A stretch of 64,000 nucleotides of DNA from a bacterium (GTDB taxonomy: Bacteria > Cyanobacteriota > Vampirovibrionia > Gastranaerophilales > Gastranaerophilaceae), in NCBI GenBank assembly GCA_017470245.1, contig JAFUEV010000005.1:62001-126000 (forward strand), in the 5' to 3' direction. A model generated the notes under the pieces. That model did not search any database, was not told the origin of the DNA, and was given only the letters and a program-made list of their open reading frames with translations. The first letter of the stretch is position 1; the number at the start of each line of letters is the position of its first letter. The translations under genes were made by a program, and so were the position numbers. This document shows positions 43,726-62,795 of the stretch, one piece after another.

Positions 43726-43738
43726 GTAATGTTTTTTC

Positions 43739-45299: not shown

Positions 45300-45301
45300 T
45301 T

Positions 45302-46852: not shown

Positions 46853-48260
46853 TTACTTTTCCTTCCTTTTTTACATTAATTTCTTTTTGTTCAAATCTTT
46901 CTAATACACTATCTATAATTTTATTTTTGGTTTCGATATCCGGATTTTTATTATGTTGATTTTTATAATCTTTTAACGAGAATATTAATGTTTTAACGCA
47001 ATTATATTTATCCTCAACTTGTGAAATATTAGCGTTTTTCAATTTTTTAATCACATAAATGTAGTCCAAATATAAGTTTTCATACTCTGACTTTTCTAAT
47101 TGTTGAAAACTTTCAATCAGTTTATAATCTTCTTCCGATAAAAATGCTCTATATTTTGAAATATCCTTTTGCAGATACTTATTAAAATCCTTAAAAATTT
47201 CCGAAATAATTTCAAAAAATTTCTCTTTATCCGTTACAATAAAACCATTATTTTTTATATCTTTTATATATTTTTCAACCGATTTAATATGGTCATCGTC
47301 TAATGTATAATCAATATATAATTCTGCGGTATCAGGAGTGTTCAAACAAGCATCTGTTATTTCTTGCCAATTTTTTTCATTATCTTCTTTTTTCTTATTA
47401 TCAATTTGTTGTTGTTTTCTGAATTCCAAATTTTTAAGAAAACTTTTTGCCGATTTTTTTATATTTTCTTCTTTTATTGAATTTAAGTGTTTCTGAATTT
47501 CTTCTTCTGATAAATTATAAGAAAATATTTCTTGAGCCCAGTTATAAGCTATGATATTGTCTTTCATTTTATTCAAGGATTTTTCAAGTTTATCTTTATC
47601 TTCTATTTGTAGAAACTCTTTATTCCTTTCAAAATACTTATATGCTTCAATATCTTTTTCTGACATAAATGCTTTTATAACGGAATAATAAAATTCGGAA
47701 CGATATATTTCCTTTTTCTTTTTAAGTGTTTTAGTCGACCAATTTTCTTTTTCAGCAAGAATATCAATGATTGAAAGACCTTTATTATAAGAAGAAAGTA
47801 CAACTTCATTATCTGATTTATATAATATTGCTCTGTTTATAGCGGAATTAATCGCATCATTGTAAACACTCAATTCCCAGTTTTTAAGTTCTTTGTCTTC
47901 ATAAGCTTGCATTTTATAAGAAATTGCCGATATTTTCTTTGCTTTTATTTCATAAACAATCTCTTTAGACAAGATATCATTGAATTCCATTTCATTAACT
48001 TTTGAATTAATAAATTTTTCAAGTTCCTTTATAAACTCATTTCTTTTTCCTGTTACTTCTTTACCTTGTAATGAATAAAACCCGTTTTCAGAGAAAAGCA
48101 CTTCTTCTTCCCACTTATCAACAATATTACAGAGTTCTATAATTTTAATTTTATCTGTCTGTTTAATATCTGTATTATCCGTCTGGAAATTAGAATTCAA
48201 ATTAATTTTTTCCACATTAAAAGAACCGTTATTACGGTTACTATCGAGTATTTTTTGCAT
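46821..48260 (-). CDS. Putative internal virion (ejection) protein, helical
   Basis: 479 residues, Lys/Glu/Asn-rich and almost entirely helical, with no signal peptide. It lies between the gp14-like protein and the tail fibre, where short-tailed phages encode large internal core proteins that form the DNA-ejection channel. The sequence itself is not recognised, and it lacks an obvious transglycosylase domain. Frame +1 overlap of 32 bases with the tail fibre start. Confidence 0.55.
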   Translation of the reverse strand: MQKILDSNRNNGSFNVEKINLNSNFQTDNTDIKQTDKIKIIELCNIVDKWEEEVLFSENGFYSLQGKEVTGKRNEFIKELEKFINSKVNEMEFNDILSKEIVYEIKAKKISAISYKMQAYEDKELKNWELSVYNDAINSAINRAILYKSDNEVVLSSYNKGLSIIDILAEKENWSTKTLKKKKEIYRSEFYYSVIKAFMSEKDIEAYKYFERNKEFLQIEDKDKLEKSLNKMKDNIIAYNWAQEIFSYNLSEEEIQKHLNSIKEENIKKSAKSFLKNLEFRKQQQIDNKKKEDNEKNWQEITDACLNTPDTAELYIDYTLDDDHIKSVEKYIKDIKNNGFIVTDKEKFFEIISEIFKDFNKYLQKDISKYRAFLSEEDYKLIESFQQLEKSEYENLYLDYIYVIKKLKNANISQVEDKYNCVKTLIFSLKDYKNQHNKNPDIETKNKIIDSVLERFEQKEINVKKEGKVNDSIIGKSGK

Positions 48261-48278
48261 ATATCACCTGTTTTCTTA

Positions 48279-48785
48279 TTATTTAGATTTTTTATCCGTT
48301 AAATATGTATTTGCAGCGGAGCTTACGGTATTTGCCGCAATAGTAAACATTCCTGTTTTAAATGATTGCTGTGATTTAAATGACCTCAATGCCATATTTT
48401 CATAATACTTATCCGCTTGAATAAGATGATTCTTCGCACGGCGTTGTGCCATATTCATTGTTTTTAAGGATTCAAATTCACTTGTTTGTTTTTCATCATC
48501 TTCTATATCAGACAATGTTAAAGAGCTTAATGATAAATTTCCGGAAGCATAAGATGCTTTTTCTTTTCCCATACTCAAAATGGATTGCAGCCTTTTTTCT
48601 CTATTCGATTCTACTGCATCTTGTATTTCTTCCCCGGCTTTATCTTCTTCTCTTTTGGCAGTTTCTATTATTTGTCTGTTTTCGTATGCTTCTATTCTTT
48701 TTTGAGTTTTACGTTCCTGCACTTTTGTTAAAGTAAATGCAGCAACTTGAACTGCTGTTTTTATCGCATCATAATAATTGCACAT
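48279..48785 (-). CDS. Putative internal virion protein, T7 gp14-like
   Basis: 168 residues from the ATG at 48785. A ribosome site AAAGGG lies between this and an in-frame upstream ATG at 48800, which favours the downstream start. The N-terminus is a hydrophobic helix (YDAIKTAVQVAAFTLTKV), the rest is helical with many charged residues, and a small hydrophobic segment (GMFTIAANTVSSAANTYL) ends the protein. Size, position and style fit gp14-like core proteins that insert in the host envelope on infection. Confidence 0.6.
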   Translation of the reverse strand: MCNYYDAIKTAVQVAAFTLTKVQERKTQKRIEAYENRQIIETAKREEDKAGEEIQDAVESNREKRLQSILSMGKEKASYASGNLSLSSLTLSDIEDDEKQTSEFESLKTMNMAQRRAKNHLIQADKYYENMALRSFKSQQSFKTGMFTIAANTVSSAANTYLTDKKSK

Positions 48786-48786
48786 C

Positions 48787-49263
48787 TTAAACCCTTTCAT
48801 TTACTTTGTAAAAAAATTCAAATCCTTTTTTGACATTTAATACGTCAGGTCTGGGATTATCAAACTGAAATCCGAGTTTTACTAACCAGTTTTTCGCCTG
48901 CAAATTTGAAGTATAAATATAGTTATACATTATTTTATATTTTGTTTCCGCATTCTTTATCAACGGCACTACATCTTTAAAAAATAATGTTTTATTAATA
49001 TATAAATAGAAAGAAGAAATAAGCCAAACAGCAGCAATGTTTTTATTTTCTTTAATTTCATAAAATCCGCCAATTGCAATAGGTATTTCTTTTTTATCGT
49101 TATCATATCCGTACATTACCAAAAATTCTTTATCTTTCAAAGAATTCAAAGTTTCAAAATACCAATTGTCACCATACAAAGCAAATAATTCTTCTTTATC
49201 TTCATCTCTCAGATTATCCAGAACAAAAAGAATTTCAAAATCATCTTTTACTTTTTTAATCAT
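48787..49263 (-). CDS. T7 gp13-like GNAT-fold phage protein
   Basis: 158 residues. The protein shows a GNAT core: EFLVMYGYDNDKKEIPIAIGG, then NIAAVWLISSFYLY, and a C-terminal SNLQAKNWLVKLGFQF, where acetyltransferases have the acyl-CoA-proximal A-x-x-x-Y/W-x-x-x-G-F. This pattern matches the gp13/DUF2833 family encoded next to internal virion genes in T7-like phages. Enzymatic activity is unproven. It overlaps the tail tubular B gene by 8 bases. Confidence 0.65.
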   Translation of the reverse strand: MIKKVKDDFEILFVLDNLRDEDKEELFALYGDNWYFETLNSLKDKEFLVMYGYDNDKKEIPIAIGGFYEIKENKNIAAVWLISSFYLYINKTLFFKDVVPLIKNAETKYKIMYNYIYTSNLQAKNWLVKLGFQFDNPRPDVLNVKKGFEFFYKVNERV

Positions 49264-51301
49264 TTATATCCGCCATAGTTATTTCTAACGAAATTGAATT
49301 TATTGTAAGCGGAAACGGATATTTTTGTTTTATATGAACAGTAGCTTTTTCGGTATAATCAGCAAAGGTAAAGCATTTAACATTTCCGGAATGCAGATAA
49401 TTTTGATTTTTTATACTTTCAATACTTAATAAATTTTGAGCGAGAGAACCGTCATTACCCACAATAAAGAAATCTTCTCTTGATTTATCTACCGTTACAT
49501 CAATTCCGTTTACAATTTTTGCCAAGCCAAATGTATTTTCACCTTCTAAATTCAATGTTTCAAGTTCAAACTCATAAGGCAATCCGACTACTATTTTACT
49601 TGCCGGCATATCTAATTGAATTTTACCGTTTTCAACAAGCTTATTTTCTATTAAAAATCCGTCAGCAAGTAAATTAACTCTTTCTCCTTCAAGATGGTCA
49701 AGTCCGGAAATTAAACTGACAGGATTACCTGTATATTTTAGAGAGCAATCCAAAAATACCCCATCTTCAGCACTATGAACATGTCTGGAAGCTAAACGTT
49801 CAATAAAACGTTTTGTTTGTCCGTTGATAGTACGTTTTATTACAAAATATACAGCATCTTCAAAATTTTCCCTAATAACAGCAATTGACTCAAATTCACC
49901 CTTTGTTTCATGTTTGTGCCAACCTGCAACATCCTGTTTTTTATTATAAGTAAGAGCATTTACCGTTCCGTCAGACATTATACACCACAATATTCTGTAT
50001 GTTTTTGAATAAGCCATATCAACAACTTGTTTATCCTCAAACAAATGAGAAGCAAATATAGTTAATTCATCGCCATCATAACTGTCTGATACATAAGTAT
50101 ATCCCAAATCTCTGATAACCGAACCACCTGACTGTGCAAATAAAATCATATTACCGGAAACAACAGGAGCCACATTTGAACAGCCATAAAAGCTTTGAGG
50201 AGAAGCATTTAAAGATGAAGCAGGAGAAAATGAGCCATCCGACCCGTTTAATTTCCATTCACCTCCTGATGTCAACAAAATCAGGTCATTCATTGCTATA
50301 ATATGTCTTATTTCATTAACTTCACGTTCGGATAAGGTGATATTTATTGCATCAGTTGCAGTTAACGGTCTTGATACATTAAAGTTATTATTTGTTCCTG
50401 TTTGAGAAGCAACCAATTGCTGCGGGTTATTTGAAAGACAGCCGTATACTTTTCTTTGTTGAAAATAATTTACGCATCCGGGGTTGTTTCCGTCTGCAAA
50501 AGGATTTGTATATATTGGAGCAGTTGCCGACAAATCAGGTTCTATCTTATCATCTTTAAAACTTGTATCAGAAGTTGTGCCGACATAAGCATATATTCCG
50601 TTAACATTTTTATATACATTATATTCAACGGCATTTTCAACTGCCGAGAATGTAATTGTAATATACTCGGTGGTACCCCAATATCCCTCCAATTCACCAC
50701 GAACAGAAACAACATCAGAACGTTTACTTTCTTCATAAGTATCCGCTCTGACTGCAGTTACGAGATATTTATAAGTTGTCGTATGTTCGCTGCCGCCAGT
50801 CCAAACTGCCCTTAAATTTGTCGGAGCCTCAATATGAGGATTAAAATTTATTGCATTTAACGTCCAATTGTAATGAGATTCTCTTGACAATTCCATTGGA
50901 GTGTAATTATTGTGACATAAGGTTAAAACATCTGCATTTTGAGCATATTTAATATCAAATATTTCATCTTCACTATATGGTGTTTCAATTTCAATCGGAG
51001 CACCGTTATTATCTGTTATTTGAGCACCATCTTTTATAAATCGTGCATAATGATGACCTAATTCAATAATATATGTCTGTTCCGTATTAAAAGAAAATGG
51101 AATCAGACGAGCTTTTGAAGCAGAAGTTTTAACTTCCGTAATAAGTTCAAGTCCGGCTCTGTTACTGACACATCCTTCAGCACGAACAAAACCGTTTTTT
51201 AGTGTTTTTAACCCTGTATTATATTTAACAAGATCATTTCTTGAATATAAAGCCGGACTTAATTCTCCTCCGGTAAAAGATTTTTGTGTATATCTTACCA
51301 T
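49256..51301 (-). CDS. Tail tubular protein B-like (phage nozzle/tail protein)
   Basis: 681 residues from the ATG at 51301. An upstream in-frame start at 51334 would overlap the previous gene and adds 11 unrelated residues. The N-terminus VRYTQKSFTGGELSPALYSR, then NGFVRAEGCVSNRAGLELI, is the hallmark of a podovirus tail protein family. The body has propeller-like strands (QQRKVYGCLSNNPQQLVASQ, DLILLTSGGEWKLNGSDGSF). It should form the lower part of the short tail tube. Confidence 0.8.
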   Translation of the reverse strand: MVRYTQKSFTGGELSPALYSRNDLVKYNTGLKTLKNGFVRAEGCVSNRAGLELITEVKTSASKARLIPFSFNTEQTYIIELGHHYARFIKDGAQITDNNGAPIEIETPYSEDEIFDIKYAQNADVLTLCHNNYTPMELSRESHYNWTLNAINFNPHIEAPTNLRAVWTGGSEHTTTYKYLVTAVRADTYEESKRSDVVSVRGELEGYWGTTEYITITFSAVENAVEYNVYKNVNGIYAYVGTTSDTSFKDDKIEPDLSATAPIYTNPFADGNNPGCVNYFQQRKVYGCLSNNPQQLVASQTGTNNNFNVSRPLTATDAINITLSEREVNEIRHIIAMNDLILLTSGGEWKLNGSDGSFSPASSLNASPQSFYGCSNVAPVVSGNMILFAQSGGSVIRDLGYTYVSDSYDGDELTIFASHLFEDKQVVDMAYSKTYRILWCIMSDGTVNALTYNKKQDVAGWHKHETKGEFESIAVIRENFEDAVYFVIKRTINGQTKRFIERLASRHVHSAEDGVFLDCSLKYTGNPVSLISGLDHLEGERVNLLADGFLIENKLVENGKIQLDMPASKIVVGLPYEFELETLNLEGENTFGLAKIVNGIDVTVDKSREDFFIVGNDGSLAQNLLSIESIKNQNYLHSGNVKCFTFADYTEKATVHIKQKYPFPLTINSISLEITMADIND

Positions 51302-51309
51302 TTTCTGCC

Positions 51310-51900
51310 CTACCTTACATCCAACCAGGAACAACTGTCTTTAGTGTTTATATACCCTTCAGATGCGTTTATAGTTTTTGCCTTTGCAAGCATACTTGCA
51401 TATATACTTAAACAATCATTTTGTAATGCTCTATTACCGGTAATTGCAGGTGCTGCCAAAAATGCAAGGTACCAACATAATGCTGATACATACTCACTTG
51501 AGAAAAAAGTTTCATTCTCTACAGACTTTGTATACCTTAAAATTGCAGGTGTCAGATTTGTATTAATAATTTTTTGTCCTGTAGAATTTGTTGCTATTTC
51601 AAATTCTACAATTTCATCACTAACATAAGGAATAATTTCTCTTGCAAAAAGACAATCATTTGGATAATCAAATTCATACAAAAATTTAGGATTTTGAGGA
51701 ATATTTCCGGTAAGTGCAAGCTCTCTGTAAGAATTAGCAAAATTCCAATCAAAATCTTTAAGAACCTGCTCTCTTGCCGTATCGTAATATTCATTTAAAA
51801 TTACCGTATTTTTATCATTTTGGTTTGTATTTTGAATATTTACGCTTATCCTTAAATTTTTTAACGTTATATTAAAAATTTTAGCTTTTGTATAATTCAT
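51310..51900 (-). CDS. Tail tubular protein A-like (adaptor/gatekeeper)
   Basis: 196 residues, helical with conserved style of podoviral adaptors: NEYYDTAREQVLKDFDWNFA near residue 37-56, FLYEFDYPNDCLFAREIIPY, then SALCWYLAFLAAPAITGNRA. It joins the portal to the tail tube. Its gene lies between capsid/cement genes and tail tubular B, separated from the former by a terminator. Confidence 0.75.
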   Translation of the reverse strand: MNYTKAKIFNITLKNLRISVNIQNTNQNDKNTVILNEYYDTAREQVLKDFDWNFANSYRELALTGNIPQNPKFLYEFDYPNDCLFAREIIPYVSDEIVEFEIATNSTGQKIINTNLTPAILRYTKSVENETFFSSEYVSALCWYLAFLAAPAITGNRALQNDCLSIYASMLAKAKTINASEGYINTKDSCSWLDVR

Positions 51901-51913
51901 TTTTACTCCGTTT

Positions 51914-51952
51914 CTTTAAGAAAAAGATATCCGGTAGTTATTACCGGATATC
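51914..51952 (-). terminator. Terminator between the capsid and tail genes
   Basis: GATATCCGGTA (51926-51936) and TACCGGATATC (51942-51952) form an 11-bp perfect stem. On the minus strand it is followed by TTTTTCTT. It lies just after the cement gene stop and probably lowers expression of downstream tail genes. Confidence 0.85.
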
Positions 51953-51980
51953 AACAAATGAGGACTAATATACTGTAAGT

Positions 51981-52379
51981 TTACACGTTATGGAAACTTT
52001 CTTGATTTCCATCCGCTATACCTGCCGTAACAGAACCTTTTGTAGGTGCAGTTCCTGTAACGGTATAATATAATCGCATATAACCCAAATTACCTTTAGG
52101 TATAAATTTGATTGTACTTACAGCACCTTTTTTCAAGTCAGAAAGGGGTATAGTTTGTTCTATCAAAGTAACAGATGTTGTAAATGTTTCTTTGTCTGAT
52201 GTTTGTACTTTTATATTTAAATTTGTAAGATTGTTGAAATCATCACTTATTTGTATAAAAACATCAACCGGTGTACCGAAAGCTATTTCTCTTTTTCCGA
52301 AATCCAATACATTCGTTGATGCAGCTGAAGCTGTTATAGCTTGTTTATTTGAGAATAAACCTTGTTCATCTAATATCAT
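51981..52379 (-). CDS. Bbp16-like capsid cement protein
   Basis: 132 residues, all-beta. The N-terminus MILDEQGLFSNKQAITASAA, then VLDFGKREIAFGTPVDVFIQ and GNLGYMRLYYTVTGTAPTKG, resembles the capsid-decorating protein family of BPP-1-like podoviruses. It lies 16 bases after the major capsid gene, in the usual position. Family assignment is from memory of its pattern. Confidence 0.7.
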   Translation of the reverse strand: MILDEQGLFSNKQAITASAASTNVLDFGKREIAFGTPVDVFIQISDDFNNLTNLNIKVQTSDKETFTTSVTLIEQTIPLSDLKKGAVSTIKFIPKGNLGYMRLYYTVTGTAPTKGSVTAGIADGNQESFHNV

Positions 52380-52395
52380 TTATCATTTCCTTTCT

Positions 52396-53391
52396 TTAAG
52401 ATACCAAATCTTCCGAGCAAGTAATTAACTCACATTCTCTTATAGGAATATTTTTATAATGAAGAACATTATCATTTAAATATTCTTTTATTGTGAAGTT
52501 TACATTTGTTTTGCTTTTCAATTGAGCTTCAAAATACATTAAAACGGTAGAATTACAATAAATAAAAGTTCTGCCTGTTTTTGCAAATCTCTTAATTTTG
52601 TAATAAGCCTTATTTAAAAGTTCTTCAATATCAGCTGCCGCATTGGATGCAAGATTTGATATACTTACATTTGCAATACGACAAGTTGAACGCCAATCAC
52701 GAACGGATAAACCAACATCCATTTTGTAATGGTCTTGATAAACTTTACGTTTTCCGCCTGTTGAGCTTGTTTCTGTCATAACACCATCATCCTTATGTTG
52801 AACACCGGCTTGTGAACCTTGAGGATATAGTAATGAAGTATGTAAATCACCCCATGTTACAAACCAGATTGACGTATTATCAGAGCCTGTACCACCTGCA
52901 TCTATAATATTAGAACCGATTTTCTTTGCATCATTTGACTTTTTAGAATATCTGACAGTTAAACCATCAAAAGCTGCAGCATTTTCTTTTATACTTCCAT
53001 AGAATATTGTTTCCTGTAACTTTTGATTCATTGCTTCTATAAAGGCAGAAGATTCTGATAATCTAAATAATTTAGGGTTTTCTGCTTTATCAACCAAATC
53101 AACATCGACAATTGAATATGTTTCAAGCATACCTGTAACATCTTTTACCTGTTCTGTTGTTGATTTAGAACTTGGAACATAACCGTAAAGATTTCTGAAA
53201 ACGGCAGAAGGCAAACCTGTTCTGATTGTTGTAATATAATTAGTACCGTCATTGCATTGCAGAGCGTTTGCATCCTGCAATACTTCATTTGTTTCAGTCA
53301 TCATTTCGATAATTTCTGCGGCGGTTTTACCGTTTTCGGTTCTCTTTAGTCTATCCGCCAAAGTTAAATAGTTAGCACCTAAAGTTGCCAT
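52396..53391 (-). CDS. Major capsid protein (podovirus type)
   Basis: 331 residues. The N-terminus ATLGANYLTLADRLKRTENG, then MMTETNEVLQDANALQCNDG and RTGLPSAVFRNLYGYVPSSK, is characteristic of HK97-fold capsid proteins of the BPP-1 group, with N-arm, E-loop and a P-domain (AAFDGLTVRYSKKSNDAKKI). The gene sits between scaffold and cement genes as expected. Confidence 0.85.
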   Translation of the reverse strand: MATLGANYLTLADRLKRTENGKTAAEIIEMMTETNEVLQDANALQCNDGTNYITTIRTGLPSAVFRNLYGYVPSSKSTTEQVKDVTGMLETYSIVDVDLVDKAENPKLFRLSESSAFIEAMNQKLQETIFYGSIKENAAAFDGLTVRYSKKSNDAKKIGSNIIDAGGTGSDNTSIWFVTWGDLHTSLLYPQGSQAGVQHKDDGVMTETSSTGGKRKVYQDHYKMDVGLSVRDWRSTCRIANVSISNLASNAAADIEELLNKAYYKIKRFAKTGRTFIYCNSTVLMYFEAQLKSKTNVNFTIKEYLNDNVLHYKNIPIRECELITCSEDLVS

Positions 53392-53415
53392 TACTTTTTC
53401 CTTTCTTTTTAATAA

Positions 53416-54012
53416 CTACTGCATTGTCGGGAATAAAATATCTTCCCTGTTTTCTTTCGGAGCCGGAGCAATACCCATCCCGTATATTGCATCATTTTGC
53501 ATTTGTTTACCAATGTTGTAAAACATTCTTATTACTTTCGGATGACAATTTAACCCCGTTTGTTGAAGTATGTTTTGTACTTCACCATCAGCGAATCTTG
53601 TGTAAGCAATATTAGCGGTTCTCATTGTTCTTTCATAATTTGCACCGCCTAATTCTCTATCAGTTATAAGTGCATTTTTATACTCGTTGATTTGTTGTCT
53701 TTGTTGTTCGGCTATGGTTTTAGAGATATTATCTCCCGTTAACCTTGAAAGTTTCACTGCTAAAGACATTAATTGATTTGCACCCTTTTGTGACAAATTA
53801 TATTTACCTGCCAGTTCATTAAATTCGCCAAGTAATTCTTCGTCATAACAATAATTTTCCGGAAGCTCCACTTCCGAATAATCATAATATTCGGGTTTCC
53901 CGAATAAACCATCATTTTCCAACCCTTGTATTCCCTGTTGGTCGTGCTTTTGTTCATAAGCATTTACCCCAAGCCCGAGGGTTGGGGTTTCTTGTAAATT
54001 TTCGTTTAACAT
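53416..54012 (-). CDS. Putative capsid scaffolding/assembly protein
   Basis: 198 residues. A disordered acidic N-terminus (1-65) is followed by a helical region (ELAGKYNLSQKGANQLMSLA, QQRQQINEYKNALITDRELG) typical of phage scaffolding or head-assembly proteins. It is encoded directly between portal and capsid. The ATGT-rich start follows AAAAGGAGGAAAA, a strong ribosome site, on the minus strand. Confidence 0.65.
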   Translation of the reverse strand: MLNENLQETPTLGLGVNAYEQKHDQQGIQGLENDGLFGKPEYYDYSEVELPENYCYDEELLGEFNELAGKYNLSQKGANQLMSLAVKLSRLTGDNISKTIAEQQRQQINEYKNALITDRELGGANYERTMRTANIAYTRFADGEVQNILQQTGLNCHPKVIRMFYNIGKQMQNDAIYGMGIAPAPKENREDILFPTMQ

Positions 54013-54024
54013 TTTTCCTCCTTT

Positions 54025-55671
54025 TTAAGTTAAACCAAGTCTAGCCATCAAATCACTACCGTATGAATCGGTACCTGCCATATTTTTTATTATTTCCGTT
54101 CCTGCTTTCACCTGTTCAAGCATTTCTTTTTGTTCGGCTGCATTTTCTTCTTTTTGCTTTAATTTTTCCAACTCTCTTGTTGGGACAATCTGTTCTGGTG
54201 AAATATTTGCAAAATCCGCATAATCATCTACTATTTTGCTTGCATTTAATTTATTTTTTAACGAAGGATCCAACGATTGTGCAAGATTAACCGTAAATGT
54301 CGTGAATCGTTCCATTGCAGATATTTTTACCGCCTTTTGTGCTTGTGCCAATGTAGATACAAATTCTATATCCATATCTTTTCCAACAATTTCGAGTGGT
54401 GGCTCAGGCAAAATTCCAAGTCTTGAACATTCATAATATAACCAAGCCATAACCTGATTTAACCCGTTATGGATTTGTTGCAACAATGGAGATAACAACA
54501 CCATTTTTTCTTCCTTTAATTCATTAACCTCCGTTGCAGTTCTTGAACGTTCCGCCGTATTTAATATCATTGCAAATAAATCGTTATAGAATATTTCTTT
54601 TATTGAATCTTTTAATTTTTCAATTATTGAATCTACCTCTAATACTCTCGGATTAACCTCATATATAGGCGAAAGTCCTCTGCCGTTTTCATCTTCTTCG
54701 ATAAAAGCTGCAGGAGCATCAATCATTTTTTTATTTTTTAGACTTGCGGGCCCTTTATAAGTAGGACTTATCATTTTTTTAACTGCTTTACCCTCATCTA
54801 TAACCATACTCATAAGTTGTTTAACATCAGGTAATGCATTAACTCCGGGGCATTCAGAAGGATAAACATCTTCTCCATTCACTTCCGATTCAAACACAGC
54901 ATAAGGGAATTTATCAAATCCGCTTTGAGAAAGAAATTTATCTTCGTTTGAAGAACTTTCATAATAAACGGAAATAAATTCTTTATCCTTTGCCCATACA
55001 GATTCTGGCATAAAATTTTTATTAGGTTCTACAAAATGTACGACTTCAAATAATTCTTCATACCTGTTTGATCGAATTGCATTTATAACATTCTTAGAAA
55101 CATTTTGCTCCCCATATCGGTCATACAGATTTTTTGCCGTTTCCATAAACACTCTGCAAATCGTATCGACTTCGCCTTTTTCATTTTTAGCAATTCTGTA
55201 TGACCCGATTGGAAGCAATTGACATCTCAAAATAGAATGTTCATCTTCTACTAATCCGAGTACTGATATTCCAAACACACCTATTTGTTTGTACACAGCA
55301 GGTAAAATACGATATAAATTAGAAGAATTAAATATATCTCTGAAAATATTTTCTACCGAACTGCACCAGGTTTTTACCTCATAACTTTCCTCCAGTTTGT
55401 AATCTCTTACTTTAATTTTAAACCAGTTGGTTGCAGGACTGGTTGCACCCGACATCATACCTGATGAAAAATTTCTGACCGCAAGCAGAGGAGTAGAATC
55501 TTTTATTTTTTTATTTTTAGCAGGTTGTTTATTTACACATCTTGCTAAAAAACGGACAGAACGAGGCAAAAAATAATCCGCAAGTTCTTGCCAATCAGGT
55601 TTTAAAGAATTATAAGCGATTTCTAATTCGGCACGCCTTGAATTAAAATAACTTTTTGAATATTCTGCCAT
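54025..55671 (-). CDS. Portal (head-to-tail connector) protein
   Basis: 548 residues from the ATG at 55671. AGGTGA lies 5 bases upstream, and the in-frame GTG at 55680 is part of that ribosome site. The motifs SYFNSRRAELEIAYNSLKPD and WQELADYFLPR at the start, then GMMSGATSPATNWFKI and RTATEVNELKEEKMVLLSPL, are typical of the podovirus head-tail connector family. It forms the twelve-mer ring for DNA packaging. Starts within the stop of the small upstream gene. Confidence 0.85.
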   Translation of the reverse strand: MAEYSKSYFNSRRAELEIAYNSLKPDWQELADYFLPRSVRFLARCVNKQPAKNKKIKDSTPLLAVRNFSSGMMSGATSPATNWFKIKVRDYKLEESYEVKTWCSSVENIFRDIFNSSNLYRILPAVYKQIGVFGISVLGLVEDEHSILRCQLLPIGSYRIAKNEKGEVDTICRVFMETAKNLYDRYGEQNVSKNVINAIRSNRYEELFEVVHFVEPNKNFMPESVWAKDKEFISVYYESSSNEDKFLSQSGFDKFPYAVFESEVNGEDVYPSECPGVNALPDVKQLMSMVIDEGKAVKKMISPTYKGPASLKNKKMIDAPAAFIEEDENGRGLSPIYEVNPRVLEVDSIIEKLKDSIKEIFYNDLFAMILNTAERSRTATEVNELKEEKMVLLSPLLQQIHNGLNQVMAWLYYECSRLGILPEPPLEIVGKDMDIEFVSTLAQAQKAVKISAMERFTTFTVNLAQSLDPSLKNKLNASKIVDDYADFANISPEQIVPTRELEKLKQKEENAAEQKEMLEQVKAGTEIIKNMAGTDSYGSDLMARLGLT

Positions 55672-55672
55672 A

Positions 55673-55891
55673 TTATTCACCTAATAATTTCTTTTTTGAT
55701 GCTTCAATATCTTCTTCAATACCGTTATTTGTTGTTTTAATATTTTCGGAAATAATCCCACGTCTGCCAAGTCTTGTTTCAAACCCTGCTTTTTGTTTTG
55801 CAGCATCGGCCTGAGTAGGATTTTTAATAATTTCTCTCGGTTTATTAACCGTTTCAATTGTTGTTCTTGATACTTTTGGTCGTGTGCACAT
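55673..55891 (-). CDS. Small phage protein preceding the portal
   Basis: 72 residues from the ATG at 55891, which has AAAGGAG at ideal spacing. Start MCTRPKVSRTTIETVNKPRE, end DIEASKKKLLGE. Small proteins beginning M-C-x-x-P-K-V and ending K-x-L-L-G are common just before the portal in BPP-1-like podoviruses. Function unknown; probably basic and disordered. Confidence 0.65.
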   Translation of the reverse strand: MCTRPKVSRTTIETVNKPREIIKNPTQADAAKQKAGFETRLGRRGIISENIKTTNNGIEEDIEASKKKLLGE

Positions 55892-56035: not shown

Positions 56036-56248
56036 ATGGACGTAGATAATGTAATATCATCAATGACTCGTGAACAATTCGATGAATTATATTCCGAATA
56101 CATTGAAGCTAACGAAAGCTATTTAATAGCAGATTGTTGTCGTAGCGGTGACCGCACTATTAGTTGTGATTCTGTTGACTGTGAATGTGAATCTATGTCC
56201 GGCACTTCTTATGGCCACGGTTATACGTACTATTGTAAAAATAAATAA
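56036..56248 (+). CDS. Cys-rich RiPP-type precursor peptide 1
   Basis: 70 residues. The acidic leader (VDNVISSMTREQFDELYSEY, then IEANESYLIAD) matches the other three peptides: S-[LM]-[ST]-x-E-[QI]-x-x-x-LY-x-x-x-IE. The core has six Cys in the shared order CC-x8-C-x4-C-x-C-x15-C and ends C-K-N-K. A T-S-Y-G-H-G-Y segment recurs in peptide 2 (SYGHGY). RBS AAAGGA precedes the ATG. It stands first in the plus-strand cassette, with no ATP-grasp gene directly upstream. No known bacteriocin family is recognised. Confidence 0.75.
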   Translation: MDVDNVISSMTREQFDELYSEYIEANESYLIADCCRSGDRTISCDSVDCECESMSGTSYGHGYTYYCKNK

Positions 56249-56298
56249 TATTAATCCATTATAAATAGCTCTTTATATATGACTATTGTTTATTTTAA

Positions 56299-56328
56299 TT
56301 GACTTTTTTTTATTTTTTTCTATATAAT
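56299..56328 (+). promoter_or_regulatory. Sigma70-type promoter of ATP-grasp gene 1
   Basis: TTGACT (56299-56304), 18-base spacer, TATAAT (56323-56328), about 35 bases before the start at 56363. Near-consensus in both boxes. Confidence 0.7.
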
Positions 56329-56362
56329 TATCACTGGATAAGGAATTAGGATATTTTGTTTG

Positions 56363-57325
56363 ATGAAAAATTCGCATTTGTATAATAAATTTTTAGGTAA
56401 TATTATAAATTGTTTTGCTAACTTCTCCGATACTTTTATAAAAAAAATAAAAGAACCACCTTATGATTATGATTTTTTAATGACATTAGACAGTGATACT
56501 TGCCATAGTCATTTGCGTAAAATATATAAACAAAACATGAAGGGTAAAACTTTAAATTTATATTCACCTGAAAGATTTTCAGAGAAAATTCAATGGTTAA
56601 AGTTATATGATAATTTACCTGAAAAGGCAACACTAACTGATAAATTAAAAGTTAGAGACTATGTAAAAGAAAGAATAGGCGAAAAATATCTAAAGCCGAT
56701 ATTGCAAGTGGCTGACTCTTTTGGAGAAATTGATTTTGATTCATTGCCTGAAACTTTTGTTATGAAGTGCACTCACGGTTCAAAATGGCAAAATATAGTA
56801 AAATCAAAAGAAGGGCTGTTAGACCACGGAATAATATACAATATCGTTAGAGGTCAATTTGAAGGGTGGATGACTCATAAATTCACTCCGTATGCAGGTT
56901 TCGAGTTACAATACAAATATATAGAACCCAAAATCATTATAGAACCTTTAATGCGAGATAATATTGATGAAATGCCGACAGAATATGAAATATATTGTTT
57001 TAACGGAAAACCAAAAATATTTCAAAAAGTTAAATACGGAAGAAATAAATATGCAACGGTTTATGATGAAAATTTTAATAAAATAGATTTAAAATTTAAA
57101 CCTGACTATCAACTTTTAAAAGAAGATGCCGATAATTATCTTAAAGAAGCAATTGAACTTTCTAAAAAATTAGTTGGTGACTTTAAGTTAGTAAGAATAG
57201 ACTGGATGCTATATAATAACCAACTTTATTTTGCAGAAATGACATTTACTCCATTCTCAGGATTCTATGAATTTGAAGATGATAAATGGGATAAAAAATT
57301 AGGTGATTTACTAAGTTTAAAATAA
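56363..57325 (+). CDS. TupA-like ATP-grasp ligase 1
   Basis: 320 residues from the ATG at 56363 (a TTG lies 3 bases upstream). TupA-type ATP-grasp features: TLNLYSPERFSEKIQWLKLY, TLTDKLKVRDYVKERIGEKY, the nucleotide loop FVMKCTHGSKWQNIVKSK, YIEPKIIIEPLM, YEIYCFNGKPKIFQKVKYG, and the metal-binding C-terminus VRIDWMLYNNQLYFAEMTFT. Such enzymes join a carboxylate to an amine or hydroxyl through acyl-phosphate. TupA relatives usually serve polysaccharide loci. Here no glycosyltransferase is near, and Cys-rich peptides flank it, so peptide modification is the leading hypothesis. About 80% identical by eye to the copy at 57695. Confidence 0.85.
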   Translation: MKNSHLYNKFLGNIINCFANFSDTFIKKIKEPPYDYDFLMTLDSDTCHSHLRKIYKQNMKGKTLNLYSPERFSEKIQWLKLYDNLPEKATLTDKLKVRDYVKERIGEKYLKPILQVADSFGEIDFDSLPETFVMKCTHGSKWQNIVKSKEGLLDHGIIYNIVRGQFEGWMTHKFTPYAGFELQYKYIEPKIIIEPLMRDNIDEMPTEYEIYCFNGKPKIFQKVKYGRNKYATVYDENFNKIDLKFKPDYQLLKEDADNYLKEAIELSKKLVGDFKLVRIDWMLYNNQLYFAEMTFTPFSGFYEFEDDKWDKKLGDLLSLK

Positions 57326-57342
57326 GTAAAAAGGATTATAAA

Positions 57343-57540
57343 ATGAAAATAGATGTTGAATCTTTATCAGAACAAGAAATACAAACTCTATACAACACTT
57401 TTATTGAGGAAAACTATACCGACGATTACCTTGCAAGTTGTTGTGACTCTAATAGTGTAACCAGTTATTGTAATGCAACTTATTGTTCTTGCTATTATTC
57501 AATGGGTTCATACGGGCATGGTTATTCTTGTACAAAATAA
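57343..57540 (+). CDS. Cys-rich RiPP-type precursor peptide 2
   Basis: 65 residues. Leader KIDVESLSEQEIQTLYNTFI, then EENYTDDYLAS; core CC-x8-C-x4-C-x-C-x12-C-T-K with a G-S-Y-G-H-G-Y segment like peptide 1. Starts 17 bases after the ATP-grasp 1 stop with AAGGAT as ribosome site, so the two form an operon. Substrate of the ligase by inference. Confidence 0.78.
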   Translation: MKIDVESLSEQEIQTLYNTFIEENYTDDYLASCCDSNSVTSYCNATYCSCYYSMGSYGHGYSCTK

Positions 57541-57630
57541 CCATTAATTTGTTTTTTACTTTAATTTAATAAAAATATATAATCTATATTAGATTCTTAT
57601 TAAAAAACTATATTTAGCTTTTTTATCAAT

Positions 57631-57659
57631 TTGCATTATGTGTTTTTTCCTTATATAAT
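57631..57659 (+). promoter_or_regulatory. Sigma70-type promoter of ATP-grasp gene 2
   Basis: TTGCAT (57631-57636), 17-base spacer, TATAAT (57654-57659), 35 bases before the start at 57695. The arrangement copies that at 56299. Confidence 0.7.
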
Positions 57660-57694
57660 TTGGGTATATAAATATCATAGAGGTTTGATATAAA

Positions 57695-58660
57695 ATGGCT
57701 AACAATCCGCATTTATATGATAAATTGGCAGGTAACATTAAAAATAATGTTGCTATTTTCAATGACATAGCAATAAAAAGAATAAAAGAACCGCCTTATG
57801 ACTATGATTTAATGATAACATTAGACAGTGATAATTGTCATAGTTATTTAAGACAAATATATAAACAGAACATGAACGGCAAAACCTTGAATTTATATTC
57901 ACCTGAAAGATTTTCTGAGAAGATTCAATGGTTAAAGTTATATGATAATTTGCCTGAAAAATCAACGTTAACTGACAAATTAAAAGTCAGAGATTATGTA
58001 AAAGAAAAAATAGGCGAACAATATTTAAAACCTGTATTACAAGTTGCAAACAGTTTTGATGAAATAGATTTTAATTCTTTGCCTGAAACTTTTGTTATGA
58101 AGTGCACTCACGGTTCAAAATGGCAAAATATAGTAAAATCAAAAAAAGGGTTATTAGAACATAAAGTAATATTTGATATTGTACATGACCAATTTAACGG
58201 TTGGCTGACTCATGAATTTATGCCGTTTTCAGCTTTTGAAATGCAATATAAATTTATTGAACCCAAAATATTAATAGAACCGTTATTGAGAGAAAATATT
58301 AATGAAATGCCTGCTGAATATGAAATTTATTGTTTTAACGGCAAACCTAAAATATTCCAAAAAGTCAGATACGGTCAAAATAAAGAAGCAACTGTTTATG
58401 ATGAAAACTTCAATATAATGAACTTAAAATTTAGTTCAGACTACAATCTTAAAAATGAAGAAGCCGACAATTATATAAAAGAAGCAGTTGAACTTTCTAA
58501 AAAATTAGTCGGTGACTTCAAACTGGTAAGAATAGATTGGCTATTATATAAAGGTCAACTCTATTTTAATGAAATGACATTTACTCCATTTTCAGGTTTT
58601 TATAATTTTGAAGATGATAAATGGGATAAAAAATTAGGTGATTTACTAAATTTAGAATAG
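57695..58660 (+). CDS. TupA-like ATP-grasp ligase 2
   Basis: 321 residues with the same motifs as the copy at 56363 (FVMKCTHGSKWQNIVKSK, FIEPKILIEPLL, YEIYCFNGKPKIFQKVRYG, VRIDWLLYKGQLYFNEMTFT). In the last motif the Ala before Glu is Asn. Differences are concentrated in the N-terminal 30 and in the 150-190 region, which might bind the peptide substrate. Followed by precursor peptides 3 and 4 in the same direction. No glycosyltransferase, transporter or protease accompanies it. Ligase function is inferred from the fold; the substrate is unproven. Confidence 0.85.
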   Translation: MANNPHLYDKLAGNIKNNVAIFNDIAIKRIKEPPYDYDLMITLDSDNCHSYLRQIYKQNMNGKTLNLYSPERFSEKIQWLKLYDNLPEKSTLTDKLKVRDYVKEKIGEQYLKPVLQVANSFDEIDFNSLPETFVMKCTHGSKWQNIVKSKKGLLEHKVIFDIVHDQFNGWLTHEFMPFSAFEMQYKFIEPKILIEPLLRENINEMPAEYEIYCFNGKPKIFQKVRYGQNKEATVYDENFNIMNLKFSSDYNLKNEEADNYIKEAVELSKKLVGDFKLVRIDWLLYKGQLYFNEMTFTPFSGFYNFEDDKWDKKLGDLLNLE

Positions 58661-58671
58661 AAAGGCAACAA

Positions 58672-58869
58672 ATGGATATAAATGATTCTATAGGTTCTTT
58701 ATCGGAAGAACAACTGCTAAGTTTATATGATGATTTGATAGAAGGAGAAGATGCCTTAATGATTGCAAGCTGTTGTACTGGTGGTTGGTCGACAGCATGG
58801 TGTAGTGATACAAGATGTAGTTGTCTTAACCACTCCATGGCAGGCGAAGTTTATGTTTGTTATAAATAG
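58672..58869 (+). CDS. Cys-rich RiPP-type precursor peptide 3
   Basis: 65 residues. Leader DINDSIGSLSEEQLLSLYDD, then LIEGEDALMIAS; core CC-x8-C-x4-C-x-C-x11-C-Y-K. GAAAGGC ribosome site, 11 bases after the ATP-grasp 2 stop. The core differs from peptides 1 and 2 between cysteines (Trp-containing GGWSTAW) while spacing is kept. Confidence 0.78.
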   Translation: MDINDSIGSLSEEQLLSLYDDLIEGEDALMIASCCTGGWSTAWCSDTRCSCLNHSMAGEVYVCYK

Positions 58870-58883
58870 TTTTTTTAGAAATT

Positions 58884-59102
58884 ATGGATATAAATAATTC
58901 AATAGATTCATTAACACAAGAACAAGTAGCAGATTTATATAGCCAAATTATTGAGGGGAATGAAAATCTTATAGCCGCTTGTTGTCACGCTTCCTATTAT
59001 GGCAGGGTAGATGCTTATTGTACTGCCACGCAGTGTTATTGCGCTATTTATCATGTTAGTGGTTCTTATACGGATGTCCACTATGAAACTTGTTACAAGT
59101 AA
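58884..59102 (+). CDS. Cys-rich RiPP-type precursor peptide 4
   Basis: 72 residues. Leader DINNSIDSLTQEQVADLYSQ, then IIEGNENLIAA; core CC-x11-C-x4-C-x-C-x16-C-Y-K, the longest of the four. The weak ribosome site (TTAGAAATT) suggests lower or coupled translation 14 bases after peptide 3. Its last codons overlap the antisense terminase remnant. Confidence 0.76.
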   Translation: MDINNSIDSLTQEQVADLYSQIIEGNENLIAACCHASYYGRVDAYCTATQCYCAIYHVSGSYTDVHYETCYK

Positions 59103-59245: not shown

Positions 59246-59824
59246 TTATAGATGTCCTATTATTCTTTCTAATTTAGAAATAGAATTAGGCATTTGATAT
59301 ATTAATCCCATTTGTTTATACTCATTAATTTTACGCAACTCTTGAAGAAAACTTTTATAGTTATTTTTTTTATCACAATTTTCTTTTAACCATTCTATAT
59401 AATAATTAATATCAGATTTATATACAAAATTATTTTCATAATAAATTTTTGAAATTTTTAATATTATATTATTATCTTGTTGAAAATAATAACCTGAAAC
59501 AAAGCCCCTATACTTCACATTGGGTTCTATTATATTTTCTCCATTTTCTATAATTACATTAAATATCAAATAATGTATTAAATATGAGTTATTATCATAT
59601 AACTTGTCTTCATCACCGGTAGAAGTTATTGGTAGAAATATATTCATATTATAAGTATTTGTTTTTTCTTCATATTTATAAGTTGATAAATCTATAAAAC
59701 AATCATTATAATATAAAAATTTCTTTATACTTTTATTGTTTTCTTCATTTATATTATACTTTATAACCAAAGTATAAATACAAACAACACAAATAAAAAA
59801 CAATACTATAAATATTTTTTTCAT
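59246..59824 (-). CDS. Membrane-anchored hypothetical protein next to the M23 peptidase
   Basis: 192 residues. One N-terminal hydrophobic anchor or signal (KKIFIVLFFICVVCIYTLVI) and an extracytoplasmic part rich in Asn, Tyr, Lys and Glu (residues 25-192), likely mixed alpha/beta. Not recognised. It has its own extended -10 promoter and lies 49 bases downstream of the peptidase gene. The pairing of a cell-wall peptidase with an envelope-anchored small protein would fit an immunity or inhibitor protein; this is only inference. Confidence 0.6.
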   Translation of the reverse strand: MKKIFIVLFFICVVCIYTLVIKYNINEENNKSIKKFLYYNDCFIDLSTYKYEEKTNTYNMNIFLPITSTGDEDKLYDNNSYLIHYLIFNVIIENGENIIEPNVKYRGFVSGYYFQQDNNIILKISKIYYENNFVYKSDINYYIEWLKENCDKKNNYKSFLQELRKINEYKQMGLIYQMPNSISKLERIIGHL

Positions 59825-59857
59825 ATAAACCTCAATTTAGGATTTTAGGTAAAACTA

Positions 59858-59866
59858 ATTATAGCA
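59858..59866 (-). promoter_or_regulatory. Extended -10 promoter of the 192-residue protein
   Basis: TGCTATAAT on the minus strand, 34 bases upstream of the start at 59824. It gives this gene expression independent of the late phage operon. Confidence 0.55.
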
Positions 59867-59873
59867 TTATTAT

Positions 59874-61112
59874 TTATTTTTTTTCATATATTCCTATATA
59901 TTTTGACGGATTCACATATTCTTTATTTTCAGAAATTCCAAAATGCAAATGAGGACCAGTAGAAGAAGGTTTACCATTTGGATAACGACCGGTTGAACCA
60001 ACTGTACCGATTTTCTGTCCTTTTTTAACGATATCACCTTTTTTTACAAAATATTCATTCATATGTATATTAATGGTTCTTATTTCTTTTCCTTCTACAT
60101 TTTTACCATGATTGATTCTAACCATATTGCCATTTGGTCCTTTATAACAAGCATCTTCAACTACCCCATCAAGTATTGCATAAATAGGTGTACCTAATGG
60201 TGCTGCAATATCTATACCAGAATGAAATATTTTTTCTCCTTTTATTGGATGAACTCTCCATCCATATGGATCACTAATGCGAGAGTATTTTTCTTCTTGA
60301 ATCGGTTTCTGACAAATAGAATGATTTTGGCATTCCATAGTTTTTTCTATATTTCCTTCTACGTTAATATTTCCCATTTCACCTTTATTTTGATTTTTAT
60401 TTTTTACATTCATATCTGGATAAAACATTTCTAATATTTTGTCATCGTTTCTTTTATCTATATGCACTTCATTACCTTTCGTCAATAGCATATTTGCTAA
60501 AGGAAAAAACATTTTTTCATTATTGTTTCCATCATTTATTTTAAGATATCTTAAACTATTGTCTGGTAAATGCCATACTGGTTTTTTATTATTATCATAA
60601 AACTTTTTATAATATTTTTCATCGTCCCCATAAAATATATCAGCCCTATTTTTTATTTTTAATGCATTCTCGTTATAGTGATTAACTAATATTTTTTGTT
60701 TTTTAATAATAATCGGTTCGCGTTCATTTATATTTTTAAATATCAGATAATTATTATGTGGTACATTTATTTTGAAAATATTACTACTTTGCTTACTATG
60801 GGAATTTAATATTTTTTTATTTTCTATTTGTCTATTTTTTAATATTTTATTCTCTATTTCTAACTTTTTTATTTGATTGTCATTATCTATAATTTTATAT
60901 TCACTCATCAAATATTCTTGTTCCAATGGCATCGAAATTTCATTTTTAATATTACTATTTATACTACGCTCATATAAAGTTTCAAAATTAAAAAGAGAAG
61001 CTGGTCTTATTTCATTTTTATTCCTTTTATCAATGGATTCATCAATTTTTTCTTCCTTTATAACTCCGCCTTTTAATATATATCTTTCATTTTTTTCTTT
61101 ATTTTTTGACAT
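59874..61112 (-). CDS. M23 family (LytM-type) metallopeptidase with long N-terminal extension
   Basis: 412 residues without a signal peptide. The C-terminal 140 are a LytM domain: SDPYGWRVHPI, H297-x3-D301 (FHSGIDIAAPLGTPI), His350 (NIHMNEYF, where His is usually followed by Leu) and H388-x-H390 (GPHLHFG). This domain cuts peptide cross-links of peptidoglycan. The N-terminal 270 residues are polar and unrecognised. It lies 80 bases after terminase on the same strand with AAAGGG as ribosome site. It might be a lysin, a virion wall hydrolase or a delivered effector; the lack of a signal peptide argues for delivery by holin or virion. Confidence 0.8.
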   Translation of the reverse strand: MSKNKEKNERYILKGGVIKEEKIDESIDKRNKNEIRPASLFNFETLYERSINSNIKNEISMPLEQEYLMSEYKIIDNDNQIKKLEIENKILKNRQIENKKILNSHSKQSSNIFKINVPHNNYLIFKNINEREPIIIKKQKILVNHYNENALKIKNRADIFYGDDEKYYKKFYDNNKKPVWHLPDNSLRYLKINDGNNNEKMFFPLANMLLTKGNEVHIDKRNDDKILEMFYPDMNVKNKNQNKGEMGNINVEGNIEKTMECQNHSICQKPIQEEKYSRISDPYGWRVHPIKGEKIFHSGIDIAAPLGTPIYAILDGVVEDACYKGPNGNMVRINHGKNVEGKEIRTINIHMNEYFVKKGDIVKKGQKIGTVGSTGRYPNGKPSSTGPHLHFGISENKEYVNPSKYIGIYEKK

Positions 61113-61192
61113 TCGTTCCCTTTCTTATATCTGTGTATTACAATATAAAGCAACTTTTTTCTATTTATATATAATCTTATGTTTTTTATAGT

Positions 61193-62503
61193 TTACAAGT
61201 ACGGATCAAAGTTTGAATCAAGTATTACGACATCTTCTCTTTCATCAATCAAATAAGAATAATAGTTTATTGCATATATACCCATCATTAGGCTGTCTGC
61301 AAAATCCGGACTTTCACCTTGTTCCGATTTCATATCTTTTTTCGATTGTATAAATATTTGCCCGTTAGGTTTATATGATTTTTTTATGTATTCCAATTGT
61401 GAAATTGTAAAATCAGAAGATATTTTTAACCATTCATTATCAATATAATCTTTTAGTGTTAAATAACCGTCAGCTCGCCTATTTAAAGCATTCGGTCTGT
61501 TACTTGATGCAGCTCCGTTAAATTTTATAGTATTGGCTATAACATTTTTTATGCTTACATATATAGAATATCCGAGTCCGTCTGCATCTAAAATCAATAA
61601 TTCCGGATTCCATTTTGTATACAAATTAATAATTCTGCCTTTGGTGACATCAGTATCAGGCTCACTCCAATGCTCTTGCCTTTCTAAAGCCCATTGTGTA
61701 GAACTTTTTGCTTCTATCAAGCTTGCTACACATAAATCTCCTCCATTTCCAGCTAAATCAACAGACATACATCTTATTTTTCTATAGTTTTCATCCTTAA
61801 AAACCAGATGTTTAGCCTTATCCAATTTGATTGAAGAAAATAAAAAATCATTTGTAGTATCTAAGGGATTACCTTCCCAAATATATTCATAATCAAGAAT
61901 ATTCCGCTCTTTACATCTTTTTGCTTCATCAATCAATTTTTGAGGACAATGTTTATTGTCATAATAGTTAATTTTTATATGGAGGCAATCATCCCTTGTA
62001 ACAAATTCGGAATATACAGGATCTTTGCGGACAAGTCTGTTCATTGTAAAAATCACAATTGAGTTTTTCTTTCTTATTGTAGGAATAATTACGTCAAGAG
62101 TAGATTTTGTAATTGCTTGTGCTTCATCAATCCAAAGAATATCCACGCCTTCCAAGCCTTTTATATTAACTCTGCCCTGTTCTCTAAAACCTTTAAAAAT
62201 AATACTTGAACCGCTCAAATTATGATTAATTTTATTAGACTTAACCGTAAAATTTAAATTATAATCATTTATCAAATCGTTAAATATTTTATATACACTG
62301 TCAGAAATAGTTGCTTGTGTTTCACGTCCGCAACAGATCCTTACATTCCTTTTTTCAGCTAACCATAATATTATTCTTGCTATGCTTTGGGATTTGCCAC
62401 CACCTCTTCCTCCTTCAATAAGAAAATAATTATAATTATTTATATTTGTTATCACAGGGATTAATTTTTCAGGAACATTTAATATTTCAGGTAATTCAAT
62501 CAT
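61193..62503 (-). CDS. Phage terminase large subunit
   Basis: 436 residues. Walker A is G31-G-R-G-G-G-K37-S, Walker B is VDILWIDEAQ (D126, E127), and the coupling motif appears as IVIFTMNR. The C-terminal nuclease has RCMSVDLAGNGGD, LLILDADGLGYS and DFADSLMMGIYAI acid motifs. It cuts and pumps genomic DNA into capsids. The C-terminal 36 codons are duplicated at 59113. Overlaps the small gene upstream by 8 bases. Confidence 0.92.
   Translation of the reverse strand: MIELPEILNVPEKLIPVITNINNYNYFLIEGGRGGGKSQSIARIILWLAEKRNVRICCGRETQATISDSVYKIFNDLINDYNLNFTVKSNKINHNLSGSSIIFKGFREQGRVNIKGLEGVDILWIDEAQAITKSTLDVIIPTIRKKNSIVIFTMNRLVRKDPVYSEFVTRDDCLHIKINYYDNKHCPQKLIDEAKRCKERNILDYEYIWEGNPLDTTNDFLFSSIKLDKAKHLVFKDENYRKIRCMSVDLAGNGGDLCVASLIEAKSSTQWALERQEHWSEPDTDVTKGRIINLYTKWNPELLILDADGLGYSIYVSIKNVIANTIKFNGAASSNRPNALNRRADGYLTLKDYIDNEWLKISSDFTISQLEYIKKSYKPNGQIFIQSKKDMKSEQGESPDFADSLMMGIYAINYYSYLIDEREDVVILDSNFDPYL
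61201..61306. repeat. Direct repeat, right copy (terminase 3' end)
   Basis: Partner of 59113-59218, inside the intact terminase gene. All six differences are synonymous when read as terminase codons. Confidence 0.9.
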
Positions 62504-62795
62504 CAGTATTTTCCGTTTTTGCCTTTTCTCCGATATTTATTTCCAGTCCTTTTCCGTCAATCATAACACTGCCCATTACATTAATATTAGGCATTGCCTT
62601 TTCATTATCAGAATACAATCCGCACAATTTCCCTTTTAATTCTTCGGCTTTTAAAAAAATAGAAATATCAGGAGTTATCTCATCATCCTTGCCTTTTTTA
62701 TTCAAAGCCATTTGCTGCACGACTTCTAAATTTTCAAAAGATTCATTTTTTGAATATAAACAACCATCTTTTTCTTTTTTCTTTTTTCTGACCAT
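62496..62795 (-). CDS. Putative small terminase subunit
   Basis: 99 residues, Lys-rich start (VRKKKKEKDG), a helical middle (ITPDISIFLKAEELKGKLCG) and a closing segment NINVMGSVMIDGKGLEINIG, which resembles the C-terminal portal/large-subunit binding end of small terminase subunits. It lies directly before terL with an 8-base overlap. No clear helix-turn-helix DNA-binding part is visible, so the call depends mainly on position. Confidence 0.55.
   Translation of the reverse strand: MVRKKKKEKDGCLYSKNESFENLEVVQQMALNKKGKDDEITPDISIFLKAEELKGKLCGLYSDNEKAMPNINVMGSVMIDGKGLEINIGEKAKTENTDD

Follow-up and report, generated by a model that had tools for sequence, protein, structure and literature searches.

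TupA-like ATP-grasp ligases paired with leader peptides in the Gastranaerophilales: a candidate family of modified ribosomal peptides

The window analysed here, a stretch of 64,000 nucleotides from a member of the Gastranaerophilaceae (assembly GCA_017470245.1, contig JAFUEV010000005.1, positions 62,001 to 126,000), carries a cassette of four short peptide genes (P1 to P4) and two genes for TupA-like ATP-grasp ligases (ligA and ligB). They follow the order P1 - ligA - P2 - ligB - P3 - P4 at 56036-59102, all on the plus strand and with minus-strand phage genes on both sides, at exactly the open reading frame (ORF) coordinates given in a first-pass annotation of this DNA. The cassette is very probably a small locus for ribosomally synthesized and post-translationally modified peptides (RiPPs), with a TupA-like amidoligase acting on precursors that are guided by their leader. 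Two marks of RiPP loci can both be read from the sequences, namely a conserved leader followed by a variable core and modifying-enzyme genes adjacent to the precursor gene, and the pattern is one that a not yet described family of enzyme-modified RiPPs would be expected to show. The first-pass annotation knew of no class with this pairing. Literature searches, whose coverage left many subscription papers and all preprints outside, likewise returned no paper pairing TupA-like or PF14305 proteins with RiPPs, nor Gastranaerophilales with RiPPs.

Linkage of a ligase clade to a leader family

Of 98 genomes searched with ligB, 40 gave matches, up to 28 in a single genome. Exact back-translated scans with a single ligase gave no usable match in viral or genome contigs; an alignment query did. 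The neighbourhoods of 112 ligases were gathered, followed by a second-round leader profile. A leader peptide lies downstream of 62 of the 74 ligases of one clade, of none of 29 TupA proteins outside that clade and of none of 394 control (decoy) genes. From coordinates alone, 52 of 76 N-extended ligases have a same-strand leader 10-262 nt further downstream, versus 0 of 28 shorter TupA; the spacing is mostly 10-44 nt. The pairing of ligase and peptide goes beyond local chance. The close homologues stand beside conserved small ORFs and not in sugar loci, in line with the first-pass proposal that a TupA-type ligase may act on ribosomal peptides.

Both window ligases match PF14305 ('TupA-like ATPgrasp') over profile positions 1-240/241 with 129.5 bits (ligA) and 125.4 bits (ligB), for a gathering cut-off of 25. 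This family is the sole match over the cut-off for either protein and, with 78% identity, they are the close TupA-type paralogues that the first-pass annotation took them for. Residues K136, K150, E182, E195, R279, D281 and E293 are invariant across 32 family members; judging from the ATP-grasp fold, they are expected to bind ATP and Mg, the putative active site being intact. The AlphaFold2 model of ligB, poorly modelled at residues 1-14, has an ATP-grasp fold. It matches D-Ala-D-Ala ligase (Ddl, Z 13.5) and ArgX (Z 12.2), and its Foldseek matches include RimK, ArgX and, among the top ones, the graspetide ligase PsnB. In sequence, the ligase has no match in the PDB, graspetide ligases included. 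In the maximum-likelihood tree, all 54 strictly linked ligases fall within a single group of 74 (support 100/99, stem 0.49), outside of which are found the TupA relatives from sugar loci. The clade is marked by a conserved N-terminal stretch (PPYDY...) and its long stem, and it is divided into subgroups A (with the window), B (long peptides, genomes G009 and G021) and C (short peptides, many of whose leaders start with MPDN...). Several TupA relatives outside the clade adjoin glycosyltransferase-like genes; at loci L091 and L246, a conserved ORF of 58-60 aa ending in YFTYK sits between a sugar-type TupA and such a gene. An exception to the one-clade picture is locus L352 (genome G033, contig C85, 1449-5752). 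This variant combines ATP-grasp enzymes of two kinds, an outgroup-type TupA and two PurD/GARS-like proteins, with three short peptides that bear the leader motif of the family.

Among the 31 ligases of subclade C, most have a same-strand radical SAM gene downstream, and in 21 cases the enzyme was classified as RiPP-type. This enzyme carries radical SAM and SPASM domains, its profile matches include SkfB (7.5e-21), 5wgg, PqqE and SuiB, and the top Foldseek matches of its model are SkfB, SuiB and CteB. The N-terminus of the model shows, at the level of secondary structure, the three-strand, three-helix order of PqqD-type leader-binding domains. Since a RiPP-type maturase stands beside the same leader family, it provides an independent mark of the peptides as RiPP precursors. 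The position of the enzyme directly 3' of a peptide is reminiscent of the radical SAM/SPASM RiPPs (sporulation killing factor with SkfB, streptide with SuiB, SCIFF with CteB). Yet no radical SAM maturase lies within 2.5 kb of the two ligases of the window, the peptide family is paired with a TupA ligase, and none of eight peptides run against NCBIfam (P1-P4 among them, SCIFF-type precursor models included) gave a match. Near ligases at L256 (2636-4764), L051 and L116 there is also a pair formed by a radical SAM protein (MANIFLTRKCNLKCPYCF...) and a Cys-rich protein with weak likeness to U32; this pair was not counted as a component of the system because it also occurs alone in the window genome.

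With a lax threshold (E <= 1), the leader profile has matches in 36 of the genus's 41 genomes (63 in G021, 50 in G009). At E <= 1e-4, over 241 sampled genomes of the order, the matches are confined to this genus, whose other members go under names such as Candidatus Gastranaerophilales bacterium (in samples from rabbit, red deer, rumen and goat) and Candidatus Avigastranaerophilus faecigallinarum. The same ligase-leader unit was seen on 3-4 kb contigs of a Clostridia bin (L195) and a Bacilli bin (L225), where misbinning is likely. Many copies of the unit in other genomes sit among housekeeping genes. Six relatives from IMG/VR have a distant TupA and no leader peptide, and the ligase-peptide system is therefore not generally phage-borne.

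Fixed leaders and variable cores

A total of 115 distinct peptides were collected. Their leaders, about 23-27 residues long and ending in LYxxxIE, follow the consensus I-E-N-L-S-E-E-E-I-x-x-L-Y-D-D-I-I-E (L in 101, Tyr/Phe in 114 and the final E in 83 of the 115), and profile matches reach E 1e-15. The core that follows is hypervariable and usually Cys-rich. Mean pairwise identity is 37% for leaders versus 16% for cores, and within a single genome identical leaders precede cores that are 20-64% alike. Three precursors of G021, for example, have identical leaders and cores 39-64% alike, with zero nucleotide differences in the leaders and a proportion of nonsynonymous differences (pN) of 0.23-0.35 in the cores. 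Positive selection on the cores is not supported, the ratio to synonymous differences (pN/pS) being below 1 and the core alignments uncertain. The distance between ligases correlates with that between leaders (r 0.38) and with that between cores (r 0.14). Loci L259, L102 and L346 (G021) encode long precursors with internally repeated cores, possibly with two products each.

The alignment of P1-P4 confirms the common leader (ending LY-x(3)-IE) and the cysteine layout reported in the first-pass annotation, CC-x8(or 11)-C-x4-C-x-C. All four also have one more Cys, the sixth, close to the C-terminus, and they end in Lys. The layout holds within the window genome. Elsewhere the Cys pattern varies freely, some cores hold 0-1 Cys (two have none), and CC, CxC and similar spacings over all cores are not enriched versus shuffles, so that a fixed Cys spacing was rejected as a hallmark; the hallmark of the peptide family is the leader. 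Cys is enriched toward the C-terminus of the cores, and a C-terminal Lys is strongly enriched versus core composition but modestly versus the local background of protein C-termini (32% vs 22%, p 0.007).

Two pairs of copies suggest how ligase and leader are kept alike. In G016 (L085/L086), the inner ligase and the leader DNA are 98-100% identical over ~850 nt, and identity falls sharply to ~50% at the core and ~150 nt inside the 5' end of the ligase; the copies of G027 (L123/L124), likewise 98-100% identical in ligase and leader DNA, show the same sharp drop on the core side. Between such copies of one genome the cores and flanks are unrelated. These tracts look like gene conversion or recent cassette copying. 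The family would then evolve as an arsenal, in which ligase and leader are kept alike among copies by such conversion-like tracts and the cores differ. Among 63 ligase-less peptides of known contig position, 40 lie at most 1 kb from a contig end, where the ligase is expected, because near-identical ligase and leader repeats break assemblies. Contigs of G009, G010 and G021 break at such repeats.

Possible chemistry and alternative readings

The window enzymes share the full-length PF14305 domain with known TupA-like amidoligases (Bacillus TupA, the C-terminal domain of Cj1438), and carboxylate activation and amide formation would be expected of them as well. In contrast to the known ones, which belong to polysaccharide loci, they form a separate clade on peptide genes. 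The C-terminal domain of Cj1438 amidates the carboxylate of glucuronate with ethanolamine-P or serinol-P (PMC11800379). In the RiPP reading, the leader would be recognised by the ligase, which would use ATP to convert a carboxylate into an acyl phosphate and then couple this to an amine. The core or its C-terminus would thereby gain an amide bond, and the leader would be removed afterwards. The Lys amine is the most likely acceptor of an amide formed on the leader-guided peptide, although we would put this at about even; the donor may be the C-terminus, a Glu of the leader or the carboxylate of a small molecule. The excess over composition is greatest for Lys: it occurs in 107 of 115 cores versus 90 expected (z 5.0) or, with the last residue excluded, in 96 versus 83 (z 3.3), z-values that are indicative given the relatedness of the peptides. 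Lys or Arg is present in every core. Of the residues that the first-pass annotation named for a possible link (Asp/Glu, Lys, Ser or Thr), Lys is more widespread among the cores than their composition would lead one to expect, and Asp/Glu and Ser/Thr are not. Core Asp/Glu was rejected as a general modification site because 5 of the 115 cores have neither residue (3.4 expected by composition), including those of L079 and L139, whose ligases are 54-55% identical to ligB. Some cores lack Asp/Glu, some lack Lys and some lack Ser/Thr; the one carboxylate that all cores have on the core side is that of the peptide C-terminus.

Several other scenarios may explain the pairing. The ligases could belong to a graspetide system (as in microviridin and plesiocin, made with MdnC and PsnB), in which side-chain esters or amides would connect core Asp/Glu to Ser/Thr/Lys. 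In favour of this, an ATP-grasp gene adjoins a leader-core precursor, PsnB is among the best structural matches of the ligB model and most cores contain both Asp/Glu and Lys/Ser/Thr. Nevertheless, PF14305 is another ATP-grasp family, without a PDB sequence match although graspetide ligases are included there, and the cores display no common motif of the Thr/Ser...Asp/Glu kind. Together with the cores lacking Asp/Glu and the unremarkable frequency of Asp/Glu and Ser/Thr, this makes a graspetide system with a new ligase unlikely. Alternatively, the ligase could form no crosslink and instead couple the peptide to a small molecule (an amino acid, amino alcohol, amine or uronate), much as Cj1438 modifies glucuronate. 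Such an addition, which is quite conceivable if somewhat improbable, would follow the known TupA-like biochemistry (PMC11800379), and the absence of each candidate side chain from some cores leaves a terminus as a possible site. PGM1-type (pheganomycin) and PEARL enzymes, which extend ribosomal peptides with amino acids, are precedents for ligation onto peptides (PMC8939145), but they are other protein families, compared here at the level of the ATP-grasp fold. Against it, no gene for making such a molecule lies nearby, and the enrichment of Lys would be unexplained unless Lys were the acceptor.

The peptides might also be unmodified, disulfide- or metal-binding products (bacteriocin-like, for example) with TupA genes adjacent for other reasons. 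Their Cys-rich cores, the enrichment of Cys near the C-terminus and the lack of an adjoining export or protease gene would agree with this. Yet the tie between one ligase clade and one leader family (62/74 versus 0/29), the RiPP maturase beside the same leaders and the cores with 0-1 Cys render it very improbable. As for the TupA genes being ordinary polysaccharide ligases next to chance or decayed frames, a view that the glycosyltransferase-like neighbours of some relatives outside the clade might encourage, it is refuted in practice by the linkage and by the conservation of the leader over 115 distinct peptides, with none detected at the 394 decoys. Some observations do weigh against the RiPP reading itself. 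The linkage counts take in related copies within single genomes, and no leader peptide was detected for 12 of the 74 clade ligases, although inspection by eye shows leader-like ORFs at several of these. The window cassette has no protease, transporter, radical SAM or immunity gene next to it, no exporter or protease common to the peptide-bearing genomes was found, and the Cys-rich cores would be compatible with metal-binding or disulfide peptides instead. A C39-ABC/HlyD/OEP exporter is complete in the window genome, but C39 domains are lacking in many peptide-rich genomes of the genus, for which reason this exporter was rejected as the universal leader peptidase and export route.

The window cassette and its phage-derived surroundings

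The features of the cassette and of its surroundings are collected in Table 1. The short gaps between ligases and peptides and the promoter-like sites before each ligase suggest that the cassette would consist of two ligase-precursor units, ligA-P2 and ligB-P3-P4, and an extra precursor, P1; the overall scan for such promoter-like sites was not clearly above shuffles. The start codon of ligA is TTG, and an ATG at 56363 is equally possible.

Table 1. Cassette genes, promoter-like sites and flanking phage-derived genes of the window (aa, amino acids; HMM, hidden Markov model; MCP, major capsid protein; pLDDT, predicted local distance difference test)
Feature	Position	Strand	Remarks
Left part of phage-derived cluster (tail, MCP 52396-53391, protease, portal 54025-55680)	44130..55891	-	PHROG/NCBIfam; syntenic in related species
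P1 precursor peptide	56036..56248	+	70 aa; six Cys; C-terminal CKNK; ligase not directly upstream; leader HMM E 2.0e-12
Promoter-like TTGACT-18-TATAAT	56299..56328	+	11/12 match; 5' of ligA; consensus match only
ligA, TupA-like ATP-grasp ligase	56360..57325	+	320-321 aa; PF14305 E 1.9e-37; putative catalytic residues invariant
P2 precursor peptide	57343..57540	+	65 aa; 17 nt 3' of ligA; C-terminal CTK
Promoter-like TTTACT-17-TATAAT	57555-57583	+	5' of ligB; consensus match only
Promoter-like TTTGCA-18-TATAAT	57630-57659	+	5' of ligB; consensus match only
ligB, TupA-like ATP-grasp ligase	57695..58660	+	321 aa; PF14305 E 3.4e-36; AlphaFold2 model pLDDT 87.8
P3 precursor peptide	58672..58869	+	65 aa; 11 nt 3' of ligB; C-terminal CYK
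P4 precursor peptide	58884..59102	+	72 aa; directly 3' of P3; C-terminal CYK; leader HMM E 4.7e-14
Right part of phage-derived cluster (ORF 59246-59824; M23 peptidase/lysin 59874-61112; terminase large subunit 61193-62503; small ORF 62496-62795)	59246..62795	-	

The surrounding genes do come from a phage, as the first-pass annotation had it, but the module does not behave as an ordinary prophage. Each of the genus's 41 genomes has a close copy of its MCP (84-94% identical), and in the genomes read the cluster occupies the same chromosomal place between the same flanks, with a pN/pS of ~0.1 for its structural genes. Elsewhere in the family these genes are unevenly spread, occurring in 13 of 117 sampled genomes, a count that takes in the genus-mates. 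The cluster looks domesticated and is a candidate gene-transfer-agent-like element: vertical inheritance and purifying selection at one locus, as expected of a gene transfer agent, are both apparent from these comparisons. No literature was found pairing Gastranaerophilales with gene transfer agents. At locus L326, 19 nt separate the terminase from the portal-side ORF, at the spot where the window has the cassette, the 59246 ORF and the M23 gene, and no other ligase was found between these phage genes; the window cassette therefore appears to be a late insertion in a domesticated cluster. To the left of the cluster (25365-44130), TonB, MinC and AlaRS genes split a block that is contiguous in relatives. 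This region (25.4-44.1 kb) was rejected as an inserted element, as it holds ordinary chromosomal genes and rather points to a chromosomal rearrangement in the window genome.

The window genome is a metagenome-assembled genome of 2.56 Mb with a contamination of 8.25%; the flanks of the phage cluster nevertheless match the genus. Its contigs C20 and C21 hold three further leader peptides (E 7e-7 to 1e-3 when searched with a single peptide) without an adjoining ligase, which could be substrates in trans.

A fuller version of the RiPP reading can be put forward tentatively. It would be a new RiPP class whose TupA-like amidoligases form Lys-linked or C-terminal amide (macrolactam) bonds, with dozens of copies per genome in which gene conversion homogenises ligase and leader as the cores diversify, and with the window cassette inserted in a genus-wide, domesticated, gene-transfer-agent-like phage cluster able to express or spread it. 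The Gastranaerophilales are non-photosynthetic and related to cyanobacteria. If the RiPP reading is true, an enzyme family of capsule and polysaccharide loci would gain a second role as peptide-modifying ligases, and this uncultured animal-gut lineage branching beside cyanobacteria would hold a large unmined repertoire of more than 100 distinct cores. The combination of a fixed leader with a hypervariable core would also make these ligases attractive as tolerant tools.

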